Virus record (IMG/VR): IMGVR_UViG_3300023176_003149
Location: 1 to 23,756 of that record
Direction: 5' to 3' (one strand)
Source: a virus
Length of the DNA: 23,756 nucleotides
The stretch's first letter is position 1, and every line of letters starts with the position of its first letter. The notes below the pieces were generated by a model, which saw nothing but the letters and a program-made list of their open reading frames with translations, was not told the origin of the DNA and ran no database searches. A program made the translations under genes and the position numbers. Positions 2,506 through 20,773 of this stretch are shown here, piece after piece.

Positions 2506-3111
2506 TTGAACTCGTTGGTAATTGGCAACGGGGAAAGTAGGAGGGCACTCGATCTTACAACAATCTTAGAAAGTTATGTAACTGTTGGATGCAATGCCAT
2601 TCAAAGAGATTATTCAGTTGATCACATAGTCTGTTGCGATAGAAGAATGGTTGAAGAAGCCATTGTCAGCAAAAATACCAAGGACACAATGATCTATGTA
2701 AGAGAAGATTGGTTAAACTATTTCAAAAAAATTAAAAAGGATAATAGAATACAAAAGGTTCCCGATCTTCCATATTCCGAAGAAAGAAAAATTGATAATC
2801 CCATTCATTGGGGTAGCGGACCATATGCAGTTCTTGTTGGAGCAACATTATCAGATGACGTTACTCTAATAGGGTTTGACCTTTATCCGTTTGATGATAA
2901 GATCAATAATGTCTACAAAGGAACAAAACATTATGGTCATAAAACTTCAAAACCCATAGATTATTCATATTGGGTATACCAAATAGCAAAAGTGTTCCAA
3001 CATTATCCTGATACTAAGTTTAAAGTAGTAAATACCAACGACTGGGATTTTCCAAAATCCTGGAAACAACAAAATGTTTTTTTTGAAACATTGGATAAAT
3101 TTAATGGTTGA
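2506..3111 (+). CDS. GT42 sialyltransferase / DUF115-like protein
   Basis: A 201-residue protein starting at TTG (2506), five bases after the previous stop, with a weak AGG eight bases upstream. The start is fixed because the nucleotide-binding-like strand 'LVIGNGES' (residues 4-11) follows at once. Motif order resembles Campylobacter CstII-type (GT42) sialyltransferases and the related DUF115 family: GNGES near the N-terminus, 'GCNAI' (28-32), 'WGSGPYAVLVGATL' then 'VTLIGFDLY' (102-127), and 'KHYGH' (141-145), the last corresponding to the SHYIGH segment that holds the catalytic histidine of CstII. It is shorter than CstII. Activity and donor sugar are inferred, not shown. Its stop overlaps the -35 box of the next promoter. 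The neighbouring sugar genes support a role in glycan modification. Confidence 0.55.
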   Translation: MNSLVIGNGESRRALDLTTILESYVTVGCNAIQRDYSVDHIVCCDRRMVEEAIVSKNTKDTMIYVREDWLNYFKKIKKDNRIQKVPDLPYSEERKIDNPIHWGSGPYAVLVGATLSDDVTLIGFDLYPFDDKINNVYKGTKHYGHKTSKPIDYSYWVYQIAKVFQHYPDTKFKVVNTNDWDFPKSWKQQNVFFETLDKFNG

Positions 3112-3136
3112 CAATATTTTTTATGCCAAGTATAAT
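3108..3136 (+). promoter_or_regulatory. Perfect sigma-70 promoter (TTGACA-N17-TATAAT)
   Basis: TTGACA at 3108-3113 and TATAAT at 3131-3136 are both perfect and 17 bases apart. The -35 box overlaps the stop codon of the upstream gene. Transcription should start near 3143, about nine bases before the riboswitch-like fold, and would read the queD-kdsA-glycosyltransferase-PMM cassette. Confidence 0.9.
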
Positions 3137-3151
3137 GTATATATTGTTAAT

Positions 3152-3187
3152 AGAGGACTCAGACGTCAACCCTCACAAAATATTCTG
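3152..3187 (+). promoter_or_regulatory. Candidate preQ1-I riboswitch aptamer
   Basis: The 5' leader of the queD-like gene folds as an H-type pseudoknot like class I preQ1 riboswitches. P1 is GAGG (3153-3156) paired with CCTC (3171-3174), and the unpaired C at 3170 directly before it corresponds to the preQ1-contacting cytosine of the B. subtilis queC aptamer. P2 is CAG (3160-3162) in the loop paired with CTG (3185-3187) after the A-rich tail ACAAAATATT. Spacing from GAGG to the P2 guanine is the same as in the B. subtilis aptamer (five loop bases before G); the second loop is about two bases longer and the tail one base longer. The position in front of a preQ1-pathway gene supports the call. 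The Shine-Dalgarno GGAGG lies about 30 bases downstream and its GAGG could compete with P1 for CCTC. No terminator hairpin is visible. Confidence 0.7.
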
Positions 3188-3228
3188 CCGTCAAACTTAC
3201 TCTAAAGCAATTATAAAGGAGGCAAGAG

Positions 3229-3693
3229 ATGGGTAAATTTTATAGTACAAAAAATTATGGTAATGACAGAGGTCTGTCTTGCTGTTTTAGACAGTGGCGC
3301 AGTACACACTCGCACTGTTCATTACTTCATGGATACAGTTTAGGTTTTAAATTAATCTTTGAGTGCGACACACTTGATGAACGTAACTGGGTTATGGACT
3401 TTGGTGGTCTTAAAGAATTTAAAAATTGGTTGGAAGATACATTTGATCACACAACTGTTATCGCAGAAGATGATCCTGAAAGAACACTTCTTGAGAACCT
3501 ACCCAAGCATGTGGCAGATGTGAGAGTGGTTCCTGCTGTGGGAGCAGAACGATTTGCTGAAATGGCATACTACAAGATGGAAGAGATCATTAAAAAACAA
3601 AAAGAAGAAGGCACAGCACTTAACACAACCGTAAGAGTGAAAAGCGTGGAGTGTTATGAACACGGAGCCAACAGTGCAATCTATGAAGGATAA
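3229..3693 (+). CDS. queD: QueD / 6-pyruvoyl-tetrahydropterin synthase family protein
   Basis: A 154-residue member of the 6-carboxy-tetrahydropterin synthase (QueD)/PTPS fold family, which in the queuosine/preQ0 pathway turns dihydroneopterin triphosphate into 6-carboxy-tetrahydropterin. Visible family features are the catalytic-type Cys30 in '[11 protein letters not shown]' (27-37), 'WVMDFGGLK' (54-62), 'FDH' (72-74, the Asp/His of the relay) and the C-terminal '[11 protein letters not shown]' (140-150), with the conserved glutamate. The usual HGH zinc motif reads HGY (34-36), and the usual upstream histidine position holds Arg in 'FRQWR', while extra histidines sit at 27 and 29. The metal site is therefore unusual. 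The start ATG follows AAAGGAGG with good spacing. The gene sits behind a perfect promoter and a preQ1-like leader and is followed two bases later by kdsA. The exact substrate is uncertain. Confidence 0.75.
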
Positions 3694-3694
3694 T

Positions 3695-4528
3695 ATGAAA
3701 AAAGTAAAGATAAAAGATTTTGAAATCTCAAATGATTTGCCATTTACATTAATTGCAGGACCTTGTCAAATTGAAAGCACAGCACATGCACTTGATGTTG
3801 CAGGCACGCTTAAAGAAATAACTGATAAACTTAATATTAATTTTATCTATAAGAGTAGTTTCGATAAGGCTAATAGAAGTAGCCTTGGTAGCAAACGAGG
3901 AGTTGGGTTGGATGATGGTTTATATTCGCTTTCTGTTGTTAAAGAAAATCTCGGAGTTCCGGTATTAACTGATATCCATGAAGTTGATCATGCGTATGAT
4001 TGTCAAGACGCAGGAATAGATGTTATACAAATACCTGCTTTCTTATGTAGACAAACTGATTTATTGTTGGCAGCCGGCCAGTCTGGTTTGGTCGTTAATG
4101 TTAAAAAAGGTCAATTCCTTGCACCATGGGATATGAAAAATGTTGCAGATAAAATTGCCTCAACAGGTAATGAAAACATTCTTTTAACTGAGAGAGGAGC
4201 AAGTTTTGGATATAATACACTTGTTAGCGATATGCGTTCTTTACCCATTATGGCACGCACTGGTTATCCCGTGGTATATGATGCCACACATTCTGTTCAA
4301 CAACCCGGAGGACTTGGCTCAAGTTCAGGAGGGGATAGGACTATGGTACCTACGTTAGCAAGAGCGGCCATTGCTACAGGACAGGTAGGTGCTCTTTTCA
4401 TCGAAACTCACGAAGATCCGGATAATGCTCCAAGCGATGGTCCTAATATGCTTCACTTAAATACGGTACAGGATTTATTAGAAGAATTGGTGGAGATAGA
4501 TGGAATCGTTAAAAGAAAATCTAACTAA
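3695..4528 (+). CDS. kdsA: 3-deoxy-8-phosphooctulonate synthase (KdsA)
   Basis: KdsA condenses phosphoenolpyruvate with arabinose 5-phosphate to make Kdo-8-phosphate, the precursor of the inner-core sugar of lipopolysaccharide. The 277-residue length and motifs are full: 'IAGPCQIES' (20-28), '[11 protein letters not shown]' (53-63), 'LTDIHE' (91-96), '[13 protein letters not shown]' (112-124), 'NVKKGQF' (135-141), 'RGASFGYN' (168-175), '[11 protein letters not shown]' (196-206), 'SGGDR' (211-215) and '[18 protein letters not shown]' (233-250). Cys24, His199, Glu237 and Asp248 correspond to the metal ligands of the metal-dependent class (as in Aquifex); the E. coli class has Asn in place of this Cys. 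I chose ATG 3695 because homology starts there and AAGGA precedes it; ATGs at 3656 and 3683 in the same frame lie inside queD. The end overlaps the next gene by 29 bases. Confidence 0.93.
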
Positions 4529-5309
4529 GGAACAGAGAAAAGCACTCAAGAGAGAGCGCAAGTTTAAAAAAGAACAATCTCGTTCTTTAAAACTTGGCAG
4601 GCTTAATACCGACGATACAAACATTCTTTGTGTTCGATTCGGTAATAAGTATGGACAGGATTATGTTGTTAAATTAAGGAACATGATTGAAAGAAACATT
4701 ACGGTTCCTTATAAACTGTATTGTCTAACAGATGACCCTAAACCTATCGAAGGCGTCGAATCAATAGTAATACCTAATCAAGGCTATGCCAAAGGTTGGT
4801 GGCACAAGGTTCACATGTTCGATCCTAAACTTCCTATAACTGGAAGAATTTTATATATGGATCTTGATGTTGTGATCTGTGGTAACATTGACAAACTCAC
4901 ACAAATCTATAATGATGATTTTATGGGGATTAGAGATTTTAATAGAAAATTTCATCCTAACTGGAGATATCTTAATAGCAGTGTGATGAGTTGGAAACAC
5001 GGAACACAATCACACGTTTTCAAAAAATTCAAGGAAGCACCACAAACAGCCATGAGAATGCATGGAGATCAGGATTGGATTTGGAAAACTTCAAGAGAAA
5101 TTATAAAATTTTGGCCAGAGCTATGGATACAAAGTTATAAGTGGGAAATTAGAAGCCGAGAAGAATTGCATGTTCTTCATGGCAAAAGACAATTTAGAAA
5201 TATTCGCAATGACATTAAAGTGGATCCAGAATGTTCTATTGCTGTATTTCACGGAGATCCTTGTCCCGATTCAGTACAAGATCATTTTGTGGCGGAAAAT
5301 TGGAAATGA
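4500..5309 (+). CDS. GT8-like glycosyltransferase
   Basis: A 269-residue GT-A-type glycosyltransferase. It has a strand/nucleotide-sugar region '[12 protein letters not shown]' (41-52), 'KLYCLTDD' (72-79) and '[11 protein letters not shown]' (99-109), then the metal-binding DxD motif in '[15 protein letters not shown]' (117-131). Further on are 'LNSSVMSW' (158-165), 'HGDQDWIW' (188-195) and a C-terminal 'FHGDPCPD' (250-257) of the HxG type that also binds the metal in GT8 enzymes. The first ~38 residues are a strongly basic helical extension rich in Lys, Arg and Glu, not part of the catalytic fold, perhaps for binding membrane or partner. The start lies inside kdsA with GGAG four bases before it, and the stop overlaps the next start as ATGA. 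Translation is therefore likely coupled across kdsA, this gene and PMM. Donor and acceptor are unknown. Confidence 0.75.
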
Positions 5310-6028
5310 CCGTTGTTAATAGATTTATATTTGATGTGGATGGTACCCTAACACCAAGCAGAAGGCCAATTGATCCTGACTTTAAAGAGTGGTTTTTAAA
5401 TTTTCAAACCGAAAATTATACCTATCTTGTTACAGGAAGTGATAGGAACAAGACACTTGAACAGGTAGGATCAAAAATTTATAATTTTGCCGAGCGTGTG
5501 TATAACTGTTCAGGCAGTGATGCTTGGGAACAGGACAAGAATGTTCACACCAGCGACTGGCATTTACCCGAACTTCCTACACAATTCTTAACACAATGCA
5601 TGACCGAAAGTGAATTCGTTCTTAGAACTGGTTTGCACTTTGAACACCGTCCTGGTATGTGTAACTTTAGTGTGGTTGGACGCAATGCAACATTGGGTGA
5701 GAGAAAGTTATACGTGGAACATGATGTTCGCATAAATGAACGCAATAGAATAGCACGTGCATTTGAAACCATGTTTTCGGACATACAGGCCAAGGTAGGT
5801 GGAGAAACGGGCATAGACATATTTCCAAAGGGTTCTGACAAGAGCCAAATTCTAAGAGATTTCGATCCAAAAAATGATATTCTACATTTCTTTGGTGATG
5901 CAATGCATGCCGAAGGAAATGATTATCCATTAAAAAGAGAAATCATTGACAGGGACCTGGGTTTCTGTTATAATGTAAAAGATTATAAAGAAACTTGGAA
6001 AATATTACGTGACGAATTTTCAACATAA
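5306..6028 (+). CDS. Eukaryote-type phosphomannomutase (HAD superfamily, PMM2-like)
   Basis: A 240-residue HAD-superfamily protein that reads along its full length like eukaryotic alpha-phosphomannomutase (PMM1/PMM2), which interconverts mannose 6-phosphate and mannose 1-phosphate for GDP-mannose. Features are the nucleophile motif 'FDVDGTLTP' (9-17, Asp10 and Asp12), 'VTGSDRNKTLEQVG' (42-55), the substrate-binding 'EHRPGMCNFSVVGRNATLGER' region (113-133), 'GIDIFPKGSDKSQIL' (169-183) and 'HFFGDAMHAEGNDYPL' (194-209, corresponding to the HFFG.....GNDYE/F of PMM). I chose ATG 5306 because the family homology begins there and it overlaps the upstream stop as ATGA; an upstream in-frame ATG at 5231 lies inside the glycosyltransferase. 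Bacteria normally use the unrelated ManB/AlgC enzyme for this step. A related sugar phosphatase role is the main alternative. Confidence 0.8.
   Translation: MTVVNRFIFDVDGTLTPSRRPIDPDFKEWFLNFQTENYTYLVTGSDRNKTLEQVGSKIYNFAERVYNCSGSDAWEQDKNVHTSDWHLPELPTQFLTQCMTESEFVLRTGLHFEHRPGMCNFSVVGRNATLGERKLYVEHDVRINERNRIARAFETMFSDIQAKVGGETGIDIFPKGSDKSQILRDFDPKNDILHFFGDAMHAEGNDYPLKREIIDRDLGFCYNVKDYKETWKILRDEFST
5946..5974 (+). promoter_or_regulatory. Intragenic perfect sigma-70 promoter for uvdE (TTGACA-N17-TATAAT)
   Basis: TTGACA at 5946-5951 and TATAAT at 5969-5974 are 17 bases apart and lie inside the 3' end of the phosphomannomutase gene. Transcription would start near 5981, giving a leader of about 28 bases before the GTG start of uvdE. 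Both hexamers are perfect, and the same 17-base spacing recurs at all other strong promoters in the window. Confidence 0.7.
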
Positions 6029-7043
6029 ACGCATAGGCTTTGCCTGCAAATACATGCACCCTGATCAGACTCAGAAGAAGAAACTTCTCGAGGAAATTCA
6101 GCGTCCATTAAACACAAAGGCAACCACCGTTAGGTGGTTGAACAGCCAACCCAAGGACGTTGCAGAACAGCGACTATGGGATATCATGGTTCATAACATT
6201 CAGTCATACATGAACCTTATCTGTTACGTTGGAGGATTACCAAATGAATTACGAATGGTTAGGTTGGGCAGTGATGTTCTTCCTGTTTATACTGAACCTA
6301 CTTGGTCTTACTTTTGGCGCAAGCCTGACGTTCGAGAATATTGCGAAAAGAACTTTGCTAACGTCGGAGCTCGTGCAAGGGAACTTGATGTTAGGGTTAG
6401 TATGCACCCTGGGCAATTCACTGTTCTTGCTTCTGACAATCCAAATATTGTTGAAAGGAGCATAGAAGAATTTGAATATCACACCGATGTCCTGCGCTGG
6501 ATGGGTTACGGTCAATCATTTCAAGATGCGAAATGCAATGTGCATATCTCCGGTCGAAAAGGCCCACAAGGCATCATTGATGTATTACCGAGACTCTCGC
6601 CAGAAGCACGAAACACAATCACGATCGAAAATGACGAAATGTCCTGGGGCATCGACGCAAGCCTCGAACTTGCCGACCACGTTGCACTCGTTCTTGACAT
6701 ACACCATCACTGGGTCAATAGTGGAGAATACATTCAACCCACCGACGATAGATTTAGTCGCATAGTAGATAGTTGGCGTGGTGTGCGTCCTGTAATTCAT
6801 TACAGTGTTAGCCGTGAAGATGTGCTTGTAGATCATCCTACAGATAAAAGACCTAACATGGATTTTCTATTAACCGAAGGGTACAAGAAACAGAAACTAA
6901 GAGCGCATTCGGACTTTATGTGGAATACAGCAGTCAATGAATGGGCTCTATCATTCCGAGATTATGCAGATATCATGGTGGAGAGCAAGGCCAAGAATTT
7001 GGCAAGCATCGCTCTTTATGAGTCTGATCAGCAATATGCATAA
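6009..7043 (+). CDS. uvdE: UV damage endonuclease UvdE/UvsE
   Basis: A 344-residue TIM-barrel endonuclease that nicks DNA 5' of UV photoproducts and so starts alternative excision repair. It has the N-terminal 'RIGFACKY' strand (8-15), 'SMHPGQFTVLASDNP' (131-145), 'NVHISGRKG' (177-185), 'ITIENDE' (204-210), 'VLDIHHHW' (228-235), 'VIHYSVSRE' (262-270) and 'AHSDFMW' (299-305). His133, His158, His179, Glu207, Asp230, His233, His264, His300 and Glu325 fit the metal-site residues of the family. The start is a GTG at 6009, with GGAA nine bases upstream, overlapping the PMM gene by 20 bases. A perfect sigma-70 promoter lies just upstream, inside PMM, which suggests early expression independent of the glycan cassette. 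Repair of phage DNA damaged in sunlit water is the likely use. Confidence 0.92.
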   Translation: MTNFQHKRIGFACKYMHPDQTQKKKLLEEIQRPLNTKATTVRWLNSQPKDVAEQRLWDIMVHNIQSYMNLICYVGGLPNELRMVRLGSDVLPVYTEPTWSYFWRKPDVREYCEKNFANVGARARELDVRVSMHPGQFTVLASDNPNIVERSIEEFEYHTDVLRWMGYGQSFQDAKCNVHISGRKGPQGIIDVLPRLSPEARNTITIENDEMSWGIDASLELADHVALVLDIHHHWVNSGEYIQPTDDRFSRIVDSWRGVRPVIHYSVSREDVLVDHPTDKRPNMDFLLTEGYKKQKLRAHSDFMWNTAVNEWALSFRDYADIMVESKAKNLASIALYESDQQYA

Positions 7044-7046
7044 ATA
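7039..7046 (+). promoter_or_regulatory. T4-type late promoter (CATAAATA)
   Basis: CATAAATA matches seven of eight positions of the T4 late consensus and overlaps the uvdE stop region. The predicted transcription start (about 7052) is one base before the ATG of the superoxide dismutase gene. No Shine-Dalgarno sequence precedes that ATG. Confidence 0.6.
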
Positions 7047-7052
7047 CATCTG

Positions 7053-7610
7053 ATGCTAAAAGAACTTAAAGATTTTATAGCGGAAGCAGAAAAGCAACGT
7101 CCTACTCTGGTTCTTAATAAGTTACCATATGCCCGAGATGCATTGGAACCAGTTATGAGCAAAGAAACCGTTGATTTACACTACGGAGTGTTATCAAAAG
7201 GATATGTTGATCGCTACAACAATAAAGAGGGCGATGATGCATTTAACTTTGGTGGTGCACACCTACACAATCTCTTTTGGCCGATGCTACAATCTCCAAG
7301 TTCAGGAAACAAACCTTCAGAAGCATCCGAAGAACTTATAAACAAAAAGTTTGGATCCTTTGAAAAATTCAAAGAGACATTCATAGAAAAAGCCAAAAGC
7401 CTACAAGGTAGTGGTTGGTGTTACATGGATGTAAAAGGCAAATTAGACTTAATTCCAAATCAAGATTTTAAGAAAGGAACTGAAATCGCATTCCTTGTTG
7501 ATATGTGGGAACACTCATATTTGCTTGATACAACCAAAGACAAATACCTAAATTCAATATGGCAAATCATAAACTGGTCAACAGTTAACGAAAGACTTAC
7601 AGGAGAATAA
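7053..7610 (+). CDS. sod: Superoxide dismutase, Fe/Mn family
   Basis: A 185-residue Fe/Mn superoxide dismutase, which converts superoxide to oxygen and peroxide in the cytoplasm. All four metal ligands are visible: His43 in 'DLHYG', His72 in 'HLHNLFW', Asp150 and His154 in 'LVDMWEHSYLLD'. 'GSGWCYMDV' (119-127), 'PNQD' (135-138, with the Gln typical of Mn-type enzymes), and 'SIWQIINW' near the C-terminus are also present. The second-sphere histidine usually four residues after the first ligand is Leu47, while the gating Tyr51 is kept; one residue also seems missing between 'GGAHL' and the second ligand. The N-terminus has about 20 residues before 'LPYARDALEP', longer than in most bacterial forms. 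The gene lies nine bases after uvdE behind a late-type promoter and lacks a Shine-Dalgarno sequence. Metal specificity is uncertain. Confidence 0.9.
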   Translation: MLKELKDFIAEAEKQRPTLVLNKLPYARDALEPVMSKETVDLHYGVLSKGYVDRYNNKEGDDAFNFGGAHLHNLFWPMLQSPSSGNKPSEASEELINKKFGSFEKFKETFIEKAKSLQGSGWCYMDVKGKLDLIPNQDFKKGTEIAFLVDMWEHSYLLDTTKDKYLNSIWQIINWSTVNERLTGE

Positions 7611-7611
7611 A

Positions 7612-7764
7612 ATGTTAAATTGGTTAAAGAATCTTTTCACGCCTTCTAAAAAGGAACCATTGGTCCTTACTAAAGAAATGGAAGTGAAAAAGAAACCTGC
7701 TGCTAAGAAAAAACCAGCAGCAAAAGCGCCTGCCAAGAAAGGCAGACCTCGTAAATCTAAATAA
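7612..7764 (+). CDS. Small basic AT-hook-like protein (50 aa)
   Basis: A 50-residue ORF one base after sod, preceded by AGGAG (7601-7605) inside the end of sod at good spacing. Residues 1-25 include an amphipathic start (MLNWLKNLF). Residues 26-50 are almost only Lys, Ala, Pro and Arg, with two PAAK-type repeats and the core 'KKGRPRKSK', which matches the minor-groove-binding AT-hook (GRP flanked by basic residues). The tail resembles histone H1-like tails. It may bind phage or host DNA, or act as a basic tail on a small membrane-associated protein. No homologue is known to me with certainty. It is followed 11 bases later by the next gene with its own AGGAG, so the set from sod to the Fe-S carrier is probably one transcription unit. 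Confidence 0.75.
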   Translation: MLNWLKNLFTPSKKEPLVLTKEMEVKKKPAAKKKPAAKAPAKKGRPRKSK

Positions 7765-7775
7765 GGAGAAAAACT

Positions 7776-7949
7776 ATGTTAGATAAATTCAAAGGATGGG
7801 TAGCAAAGCGTTTCACAGAAAGAACTTCGTGGGACGGAGCAGCACTAATTGCGCTCGGCATTGTAGTTTTAATTGCTAAACCTCTTGCAGGATTACTCGC
7901 ATATGCGGCAATCGCATACGGTGCGTGGACTATTTGGAAGAGTGAATAA
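7776..7949 (+). CDS. Small membrane protein conserved in marine T4-like phages (57 aa)
   Basis: A 57-residue protein with a charged N-terminus (MLDKFKGWVAKRFTERTSWD), followed by a hydrophobic stretch of about 35 residues (21-55) that can form one long or two short membrane helices. It begins seven bases after AAGGAGA and its TAA overlaps the ATG of the next gene (TAATG), so translation is coupled. The 'RTSWDG..LIA.G.VVLIA.P...L.AYAAIAYGAW' pattern is familiar to me from conserved small proteins in marine phages. The function is unknown. It has too few features to call a holin. Confidence 0.75.
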   Translation: MLDKFKGWVAKRFTERTSWDGAALIALGIVVLIAKPLAGLLAYAAIAYGAWTIWKSE

Positions 7950-8275
7950 TGCCAGATGCAGTTAATCTAACAGATTCTGCAATTAGGCACATGGAAAGCC
8001 TAATTAAAAAAACCGGTAAACCCATCGTTCGATTATCAATGAAGGGCGGTGGGTGCGCTGGATTTTCCTATGACTGGCAAATGACAGATTCAAAAGATTT
8101 TGGTGATGAAGTTATTAAATTACCCAATGGTGAATTTGTTATAGATTCAAACAGTCTACTATTTCTTGTTGGAACCGAAATAGATTATGTTGAAGAAGTA
8201 TTTGGTTCCTATCTACAGATAAACAATCCCAATTCTAAATCAAGTTGCGGCTGCGGCGAAAGCGTAGGATTTTAA
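7949..8275 (+). CDS. A-type Fe-S cluster carrier (IscA/HesB family)
   Basis: A 108-residue A-type iron-sulfur carrier, which passes Fe-S clusters from the scaffold to target enzymes. The three conserved cysteines are present: Cys36 in 'GGGCAGFSY' and Cys100/Cys102 in the C-terminal 'SSCGCGESVGF'. The overall length and the 'LT..A......I......IRLS.KGGGCAGF.Y' pattern match the IscA/ErpA/HesB family. The gene is translationally coupled to the small membrane protein upstream and is the last gene before a converging minus-strand gene, eight bases away. Its place after sod suggests help with Fe-S enzymes under oxidative stress during infection, but that is inference. Which family member (IscA, ErpA, SufA) it replaces cannot be told. 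Confidence 0.9.
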   Translation: MPDAVNLTDSAIRHMESLIKKTGKPIVRLSMKGGGCAGFSYDWQMTDSKDFGDEVIKLPNGEFVIDSNSLLFLVGTEIDYVEEVFGSYLQINNPNSKSSCGCGESVGF

Positions 8276-18256: not shown

Positions 18257-20773
18257 ATGGCAGTGACTTGGATAACGCCAGCAGGAGACCTTGGAACACT
18301 TGAAGAAAGAATTACAGTTAACATAGTACTCCAAGCATCAACTGATATCGGTAATCTACAATACAAAATTATTGCGGGTTCACTACCTACGGGTTTATAT
18401 CTTGATCAAGCCACAGGAGCAATAAAAGGAACTCCTGGAGAAGTAACTAAATTTACCGAAAAAAGATTTGTCGTTAGGGCGTACGATGCCCAAGACGAAA
18501 AAGATAGAACATTTAAATTGTTCGTTGATGGGTCTGACTTTCCTGAATGGATCACACAAGAAGGATTCCTTAAAGTAGGAGAAGGTGAAGCATACTTTGT
18601 TCTTGATGATTCAAGAGTAGATTTTCAACTTGAAGCAACTGACAGAGATCTTGTTGCTGGAGATGTTTTACAGTATTATGTTATTCCTAACAGTGGAACA
18701 CTGCCTCCGGGTCTAACACTTTCAAAAACAGGAAGAATAACAGGATTCACGGAGCCTGTTGCTGCAATTGATTACACATCAACACCTACTGGAGCATATG
18801 ATACACATTCATTTGATACGGTTCCACTTGATATAGCCAAGAATAATTCAACTGGTTTTGATTCATATTATTATGATGACCAAAGATATGACTATGGTGA
18901 GCAAGGAAGAACTCCTAAAAAATTAAGTAGAATATACACCTTTGGTGTTGCAATAACTGATGGTGTTAACGCAGTAAGCAGAACGTTTAAAATCTATGTT
19001 GTAACTGAAGAATTTTTACAAGCAGACAATACTCTTATTCAGGTTGACACTAATCTATTCCAAGCAGATTCAAGCAGAGATAGAAAACCACTTTGGATCA
19101 CTGATTCAAATCTTGGAAGATACAGAGCAAACAATTATGTTACAATATTCCTTGATGTATATGATCCCCCATCGTTGACTGGTACAATAAGTTATTTTCT
19201 TTTAGAAACTAATCCAGATGATGGAACTCCAAGCGTTTTACCTCCTGGGTTGGTGCTGGATGGGCAATCTGGTGAACTCGCAGGTAAAATTCCTTACCAG
19301 GCAGCGGTTACTGAAAATTATAAATTTTCAATGGAAGCAGTAAACTTTCCACCTTCTTTGGCACAAGGCACATACAATCTAAGGGGAAATTGGAGTTCAA
19401 CAACTGCATATGCAGTCAATGATGCAATTAAATTTGGGAATTTGCTATATGTCTGTGTTAAGGATAATATTGGAGAAATACCAGAAGACAATGAGGAATA
19501 TTGGAATCTTGGAGTGTCAAGTGCTGTTAAAACATTTACGGTTGACATCATAGGTGAAATAGAAAGTGCTATTGAATGGATTTCAAATACCGATGTCGGA
19601 ACCATCAAACCAAATCAACCAAGTAGATTGTTTGTTGAGGCGCGAAGTCTGTTATATGGCGGAAGAATAAGATACGAACTTGTTTCGGGTGAGGTACCTC
19701 CAGGATTAACATTTCTACCAACCGGAATACTACAGGGTAAGGTAAGACAGTTTTCCGATAGTGATCAAGATGGGTTGACAAGATTCTATGATCAGGACAG
19801 TGCATTGATTGATTCTACAGGTTCAAGAAGTTTTAATACAACGTTTGATGATGATCAAACGAGTTACGACAAGATTTTTAATTTCAAAGTTAAAGCAATT
19901 GACGGTGCAAATTTTGCTGAATCCGAAAAAGACTTTACCATAAAGGTCGTGGCTGAAAATGAAAAGACATTTTCTAATCTTTATTGCAAGGCATTACAAA
20001 GCAAAGAAAAGAGATTCAGTTGGTTTAACTTTATTACTGACGGAACCGTGTTTGTTCCTGAGGATATGTATCGATATGGAGATGAAAATTTTGGTGTTCA
20101 AGCAGAATTGAAGACTTTATTATTTGCTGGAATTGAAAGTGTTGAAGCGGTAAGATACATACAGGCAATGAGTAGAAATCATTATAGAAAAAGATTCACA
20201 TTTGGAGATCTGAGATCAGCCAAAGCAAAAGATCCGGAAACACAGGAAACAATTTATGAAGCCATTTATATTGATCTAAAAGATGAATATGAAAAAGAAG
20301 ATGGCACGAGCATAAATGCTGAGATTGAATTAAAGGATAACATCAACAGCAAGGTATTGGTTAGCCAGAGTTCAATAAGGATCGACAGTGATATTCCGCT
20401 TGTTAGTGATAGCGATTTACAGAAAGTATTTCCAAATTCAGTAAAAAACATGAGAGGAAGAATTAGAGCGATCGGAGAAAGAGATCGTGAATTTTTGCCT
20501 CTTTGGATGCGTAGCATACAGGATACGGGAACAGTAGAATTAGGATATACAAAGGCCCTGGTGCTTTGTTATACCAAACCCGGAAGATCAGAATCTATAA
20601 TGGCTAAAATTAGAGCCAAGGGATTTGACTTTAAACTAATAGATTTTGTTGCAGATCGTTACATCATTGATATAGTCAACGGAGAAATACAGGATCAATA
20701 CCTAAAATTTCCGCAGGAATCAATAACAAAACAGAATGAATCATATCCTAAGACGCAGGATATAAGCATATGA
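18257..20773 (+). CDS. Large structural protein with Ig-like (He_PIG) repeats (838 aa)
   Basis: An 838-residue protein starting at ATG 18257 behind a strong GGAGG. It contains repeated putative-Ig (He_PIG/cadherin-like) units marked by 'G.LP.GL.....TG.I.G': 'AGSLPTGLYLDQATGAIKGT' (about 41-60), 'SGTLPPGLTLSKTGRITGF' (about 149-167), 'VLPPGLVLDGQSGELAGK' (about 328-345) and 'SGEVPPGLTFLPTGILQGK' (about 476-494). Two similar 'FDTVPLDIAK..STGFDSYYYDDQRYDYG' style inserts are seen. The C-terminal quarter ('KVFPNSVKNMRGRIRAIGER...FLPLWMRSIQ', 'LCYTKPGRSESIMAKIRAKGFDFKLIDFVADRYIIDI') has a different, conserved alpha/beta character I recall from large structural proteins of T4-like marine phages. 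A baseplate or fibre-linked role is likely. No catalytic motif is visible. Confidence 0.75.
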   Translation: MAVTWITPAGDLGTLEERITVNIVLQASTDIGNLQYKIIAGSLPTGLYLDQATGAIKGTPGEVTKFTEKRFVVRAYDAQDEKDRTFKLFVDGSDFPEWITQEGFLKVGEGEAYFVLDDSRVDFQLEATDRDLVAGDVLQYYVIPNSGTLPPGLTLSKTGRITGFTEPVAAIDYTSTPTGAYDTHSFDTVPLDIAKNNSTGFDSYYYDDQRYDYGEQGRTPKKLSRIYTFGVAITDGVNAVSRTFKIYVVTEEFLQADNTLIQVDTNLFQADSSRDRKPLWITDSNLGRYRANNYVTIFLDVYDPPSLTGTISYFLLETNPDDGTPSVLPPGLVLDGQSGELAGKIPYQAAVTENYKFSMEAVNFPPSLAQGTYNLRGNWSSTTAYAVNDAIKFGNLLYVCVKDNIGEIPEDNEEYWNLGVSSAVKTFTVDIIGEIESAIEWISNTDVGTIKPNQPSRLFVEARSLLYGGRIRYELVSGEVPPGLTFLPTGILQGKVRQFSDSDQDGLTRFYDQDSALIDSTGSRSFNTTFDDDQTSYDKIFNFKVKAIDGANFAESEKDFTIKVVAENEKTFSNLYCKALQSKEKRFSWFNFITDGTVFVPEDMYRYGDENFGVQAELKTLLFAGIESVEAVRYIQAMSRNHYRKRFTFGDLRSAKAKDPETQETIYEAIYIDLKDEYEKEDGTSINAEIELKDNINSKVLVSQSSIRIDSDIPLVSDSDLQKVFPNSVKNMRGRIRAIGERDREFLPLWMRSIQDTGTVELGYTKALVLCYTKPGRSESIMAKIRAKGFDFKLIDFVADRYIIDIVNGEIQDQYLKFPQESITKQNESYPKTQDISI

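Follow-up and report, generated by a model that had tools for sequence, protein, structure and literature searches.

A conserved pseudoknot in the leader of phage queD genes, probably a riboswitch of the preQ1-I kind

In the 23,756-nt stretch of viral DNA analysed here (the window), a gene of the QueD/6-pyruvoyl-tetrahydropterin synthase (PTPS) family follows a short leader that an earlier note, made from the sequence alone, had read as a preQ1 class I (preQ1-I) aptamer. This raises the question of whether the leader is such an aptamer, a relative of it or an RNA of another kind. The perfect sigma-70 promoter that the note placed ahead of the leader is present, with 17 bases between its two hexamers, and transcription is expected to start near 3143–3145. 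Of the aptamer claim itself, the structured pseudoknot before queD, the preQ1-I topology and the A-rich third loop stood, and membership in the Rfam family RF00522 did not. Our conclusion is a cis-regulatory RNA specific to phages, most likely a riboswitch working like those of preQ1 class I, a reading to which we give a probability of about 0.7.

The coordinates of the leader and the two genes behind it are collected in Table 1. The coding start of the second gene, kdsA-like, is probably at 3698. The QueD of the window carries the motif HCSLLHGY; the corresponding bacterial motif is HKCGRLHGH, so that one presumed zinc-ligand position is a tyrosine in the phage protein. Beyond the two genes lie an ORF without a Pfam match (4500–5309) and, within 4500–8275, genes for a phosphomannomutase (PF03332), the UV endonuclease UvdE (PF03851), an Fe/Mn superoxide dismutase and an iron-sulphur assembly protein (PF01521). 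The sole cultured-phage relatives of the large protein encoded at 18257–20773, about 25% identical to it, are in jumbo phages, Agrobacterium phage Atu_ph07 and Sinorhizobium phage Phosso.

Table 1. Leader elements and adjoining genes in the window
Feature	Positions	Strand	Basis
Sigma-70 type promoter: TTGACA 3108–3113, N17 spacer, TATAAT 3131–3136	3108–3136	+	Read in sequence
Conserved H-type pseudoknot, aptamer-like domain	3152–3192	+	Model R1 score and covariation
P1 5' strand, GAGG	3153–3156	+	Partner 3171–3174; A-T/T-A/C-G covariation in relatives
L1, first three bases [A/T/C]CT in genuine relatives	3157–3161	+	Scan without L1 requirement
P2 outer 5' strand, GACG	3162–3165	+	Partner 3189–3192; innermost pair shows all four Watson-Crick types
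P2 inner 5' strand, CA (putative C3167-G3187; A3168-U3186), beside the U3166·C3188 mismatch	3167–3168	+	TCA/TCG counts
L2, [A/U/C]C; here A3169 and C3170, between the helices	3169–3170	+	Loop counts in relatives
P1 3' strand, CCTC	3171–3174	+	As for P1 5' strand
L3, A-rich, with [T/C]TC at its end	3175–3185	+	Relatives
P2 inner 3' strand, UG	3186–3187	+	TCA/TCG counts
P2 outer 3' strand, CGTC	3189–3192	+	Covariation with 3162–3165
Start of putative expression platform, AAAcTTACTC	3193–3202	+	Sequence and helix analysis
Shine-Dalgarno (SD) site, AAAGGAGG	3215–3222	+	Read in sequence
queD/6-pyruvoyl-tetrahydropterin synthase family, 154 aa	3229–3693	+	PF01242, E = 1.9e-15
DAHP/KDO-8-P synthase family (kdsA-like)	3656–4528	+	PF00793, E = 1.8e-68

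A covarying H-type pseudoknot

Comparison with related leaders revealed an H-type pseudoknot of two helices. A covariance model (R1), built from 12 phage leaders excluding the window and all preQ1-I sequences, matches the window at 3150–3196 with 30.1 bits (E = 2.5e-10) and nowhere else credibly. The P1 helix proposed in the earlier note holds: at the pair flanking GG:CC on the outside, all 94 distinct leaders of one set have A-T or T-A, where shuffled sequences predict 58, and a larger set of 178, pre-filtered on that very pair, has A-T, T-A or C-G throughout. Several sets were also filtered on P2 before counting, and the 94-leader count is the least filtered. P2 lies elsewhere than in that note. 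The CAG:CTG helix first proposed, available in the window at 3160–3162 and 3185–3187, was dropped, as the loop CAG occurs in only 10 of 178 relatives. The true P2 joins GACG to CGTC. In 29 diverse sequences its covariation scores 0.951, compared with 0.265 for shuffled strands; none of 500 shuffles reached that value, and sliding the strands brought it to 0.256 or less. Family-wide, the five bases 5' of TCA pair with the five bases 3' of CTGC, and every position varies on both sides.

The bases next to the outer P2 helix change in concert. Among the matches listed, the structured members comprise 306 with TCA and CTGC, 57 with TCG and CCGC and none with a mixed combination, and in a scan permitting either letter at the CTGC/CCGC site of TCG members the structured ones all had the G-C form. 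This coupling indicates that P2 runs on through a U·C mismatch into a C-G and an A-U pair, thereby reducing L2 to [A/U/C]C. Since the inner C-G pair (C3167-G3187) is invariant in all members, it is proposed as a putative pair. Pattern-derived counts include letters that the pattern itself demands, and invariance was checked with relaxed scans and with protein-anchored loci; in the latter, where L1, L2 and the L3 end were not required, genuine members keep [ACT]CT, TC[AG]NC and [TC]TC[TC]GC. The folding energy of the single leader is ordinary (z = +0.47, in a calculation that takes no account of pseudoknots), and it is thus the comparative evidence alone that lifts the knot above chance.

Distribution and link to queD

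The shared motif was first seen in QueD-anchored viral loci and then sought by gene-blind pattern scans of IMG/VR. It occurs in more than 360 distinct viral leaders, a lower bound like all totals from these scans, and the first gene downstream is practically always that of QueD/PTPS, which is rarely the second. The first gene-blind scan returned at least 120 stretches; among the matches listed, 105 were distinct, 100 of these passed the pairing check, and nearly all sat 19–41 nt 5' of the start codon of a QueD gene. The outcome was the same when the letters for P1 and L3 were varied in two additional gene-blind scans. QueD lies directly 3' in 267 of 275 instances among the matches listed, counting those that have at least four of five P2 pairs and carry no flag for truncation at a contig end. 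Four of the other eight are near contig ends, and four (L119, L606, L610 and L642) have QueD later in the same operon, behind small, methyltransferase-like or intron-endonuclease-like ORFs. A TCG-type scan gave 81 matches with QueD and 12 others without the structure, again among the matches listed. The downstream QueDs fall to about 24%–33% identity between types (aligned part), and the loops are invariant all the same.

In L606 (3' of 3990) a methyltransferase-like ORF, and in L642 (3' of 4833) an ORF resembling an intron-type endonuclease, both named by eye, stand between knot and queD as if inserted. The motif is missing from many viral queD genes, which frequently follow another gene in an operon. 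L017 and L024, two contigs without the knot, have another short leader hairpin, ACGGTGCCCTTCCACCGT, ahead of queD.

An exact-pattern scan of bacterial and archaeal GTDB genomes (257 Gb) yielded 88 stretches, mostly with an incomplete structure and none near a QueD found by profile search. The best of these by model (L275, 25 bits) was rejected, being itself pattern-selected and having no QueD nearby. Cultured phages gave no leader match by blastn, and R1 found nothing credible in ten of their queD regions. No Rfam family scores above threshold in the window, nor credibly in the leader, and the motif is absent from Rfam; a search of the open literature, with subscription papers and preprints outside its scope, found no mention of a phage queD leader RNA.

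Relation to preQ1-I and candidate ligands

Class I aptamers contact preQ1 via C17, the G5-C18 floor, U6 and A30 (PMC11625349). The phage motif resembles preQ1-I (RF00522, types I–III) in being an H-type pseudoknot whose covarying helices P1 and P2 follow the class I order, in a P1 of the AGNGG:CCNCU kind with a G-C floor, in an A-rich L3 and in standing 5' of a queuosine-pathway gene, QueD, in practically all instances. The cytosine directly 5' of CCTC, to which the earlier note had assigned the preQ1 contact, is conserved, and by position C3170 would be the equivalent of class I C17. It is preceded by U or A in 170 of 178 relatives (TCATC in 110, TCAAC in 60), the other 8 having TCACC. In contrast, L1 is NCU in the phage motif and UU in class I, P2 consists of five variable pairs, a mismatch and two inner pairs, and L3 ends in YUC before P2 where class I ends in A. 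Of the four class I contacts, U6, which reads N9 of the ligand, is not conserved (the base at its position is A in 105, T in 50 and C in 23 relatives), and A30, the adenine at the L3 end that reads N2/N3, seems to be replaced: the base directly 5' of the P2 3' strand (P2') is C in genuine members, with an adenine common a few bases earlier. Furthermore, the phage motif was found here only in viral contigs, and it is predicted to be an ON switch with an anti-start helix.

RF00522, which the earlier note had proposed to run, does not match the window leader, even with the search narrowed to 58 bases, and none of 38 motif-bearing records reaches its gathering threshold of 39 bits. Sub-threshold matches of 8–12 bits (best 12.2) fall on the motif in 7 of the 38 records, where about 0.03 coincidences by position are expected by our own estimate from hit density. 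Conversely, R1 matches the aptamer in 8 of 15 preQ1-I loci (six genomes; best 17 bits, E = 7e-5), aligning AGAGGU-UCAUAGCGUCAACCCUCUAUAAAAA over the whole length of the 5' domain. The earlier note had named a sub-threshold score combined with a lack of conserved pairing as the outcome that would tell against it; the score is below threshold and the pairing is strongly conserved. On this comparison of sequences and models, the phage motif is related to preQ1-I, with a like anatomy, yet it stays below the family threshold and lacks one or more of the contacts. The resemblance may reflect homology or convergence.

PreQ1 classes II and III are HLout pseudoknots, class II being almost double class I in size and class III spanning about 100 nt (PMC11625349). 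They (RF01054 and RF02680) share with the phage motif queuosine genes, a pseudoknot and translational control (PMC11625349), whereas the phage motif is of the H-type; neither model gave a match at E up to 10 among 12 motif members. The manA and wcaG motifs (RF01745 and RF01761) are likewise candidate cis-regulatory RNAs, from marine metagenomes and T4-like phages (PMC2864571), but differ in genes and structures and have no Rfam match here.

The route from GTP towards CDG runs through FolE, QueD and QueE, and QueC continues it to preQ0 (PMC6884629). Among the 38 motif-bearing contigs, FolE occurs in 20, QueE-like matches below the curated cut-off in 17 and a clear QueC in one, a few others being weak; tRNA-guanine transglycosylase occurs in none, the contigs being fragments in which absence is no proof. 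Given this gene content, preQ1, preQ0, CDG and pterins remain as candidate ligands. As the specificity cytosine and the G-C floor are kept and U6 is not, the ligand may be preQ1 or another of these.

Expression platform and putative mechanism

A perfect TTGACA-N15–19-TATAAT promoter lies within 75 nt 5' of the motif in 44 of 167 related leaders and in none of 167 shuffled ones. The –10 box typically precedes P1 by 8–16 nt, so that the knot would open the transcript. No terminator-like T run was seen 3' of the knot, and regulation is therefore probably at translation, an output that the earlier note had also favoured. Its particular switch, in which CCTC would pair with the Shine-Dalgarno site, is rejected as a conserved device, since P1 of relatives reads GTGG/CCAC or GCGG/CCGC and the pairing is lost.

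The region 3' of the knot contains anti-start or anti-SD helices (for example TGTCATTGTTA/TAACAATGGCA, AAGTCATC/GATGACTT, CCATTATTA/TAATAATGG and CCTATG/CATAGG). The predicted blocking helix uses P2' bases and covers the start codon or the SD site in 263 of 316 leaders, so that P2' is a strand shared across the family. The helix that P2'+9 forms with the start region averages 6.77 bp in native and 5.64 bp in swapped combinations (p = 4.7e-36, optimistic because the swap tests count related leaders as independent). SD access with and without the knot was analysed after splitting the leaders by type. In the CTATG-hairpin group (64 leaders), P2' pairing with the SD region is 0.489 native versus 0.144 swapped (p = 7.8e-12, optimistic for the same reason), and removing P2' raises SD access from 0.28 to 0.73; knot and blocking helix are mutually exclusive in this group, which predicts an ON switch. 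In the window, AAAcTTACTC (3193–3202) can pair with GGGTAAaTTT (3231–3240), covering the G of ATG, or alternatively CTTACTC (3196–3202) with GAGGCAAG (3219–3226), covering the Shine-Dalgarno site; the sequence CAAACTT[A/G] 3' of P2 recurs in about 80 leaders. Here the blocking helix adjoins P2' without sharing bases, and the predicted SD access goes from 0.53 in the free RNA to 0.74 when the 5' part is held and 0.78 with the knot, a small effect.

The comparisons enable us to propose a putative model in which the leader knot is probably a phage riboswitch of the preQ1-I kind. In most relatives, the open knot would leave P2' and the following bases free to pair with the start codon or SD region, and initiation would be blocked. 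The pseudoknot may be stabilised by a queuosine-pathway metabolite resembling guanine (preQ1, preQ0, CDG or the preceding pterins), which would pair with C3170 between the two helices. Knot formation would withdraw P2', and translation of queD would begin, making a translational ON switch. Joint control of kdsA, the glycosyltransferase and PMM, which the earlier note considered, would be conjecture. We infer the small-molecule binding, the ligand identity and the ON direction from this pattern. PreQ1 riboswitches are generally OFF switches of biosynthesis or uptake genes, and an ON switch on a biosynthetic gene would thus be unusual. A narrower form of the model, in which the motif is a virus-exclusive riboswitch class whose ligand is guanine-faced and not preQ1 (for example CDG, or the pterin that QueD uses or makes) and which turns queD on by withdrawing the anti-start strand, is tentative, its chances lying somewhat below even.

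Three other explanations have to be weighed. A canonical class I riboswitch of known type would account for the order of elements, the G-C floor, the [A/U]C before the P1 3' strand, the A-rich L3 and the queuosine gene downstream, but is unlikely given the lack of an RF00522 match in the window, scores no higher than 12 bits, with a threshold of 39, in those relatives that match, and the departures in L1 (NCU, not UU), in the L3 end (YUC, not A) and in a P2 of 5+2 pairs and variable sequence. Slightly less probable again is a protein-binding site, for instance for a QueD repressing its own translation. Some H-type leader pseudoknots of phages are bound by proteins, as when T4 gp32 represses its own translation at one, and the strict queD link would fit; loops that stay invariant while QueD diverges this far argue against such a site, as does the two-way resemblance to preQ1-I, which it would not lead one to expect. 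The least probable of the three, and improbable outright, is a ligand-free pseudoknot that stabilises the 5' end or tunes translation. The knot does lie a few bases from the predicted transcript start, and 5' structures can shield mRNA; this explanation leaves unaccounted for the invariant unpaired bases, the near-exclusive queD link and the adaptation of P2' and the start region to each other.

If the riboswitch reading is true, hundreds of uncultured phages carry a virus-confined riboswitch group, by which phage queuosine/7-deazaguanine synthesis would be coupled to the infected cell's metabolic state. With its ligand-contact positions altered and the specificity cytosine retained, the motif lends itself to a direct test for a changed ligand, and the strand shared between P2' and the anti-start helix would be a simple and checkable ON mechanism. 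More broadly, structured RNAs in phage leaders escape current RNA libraries.
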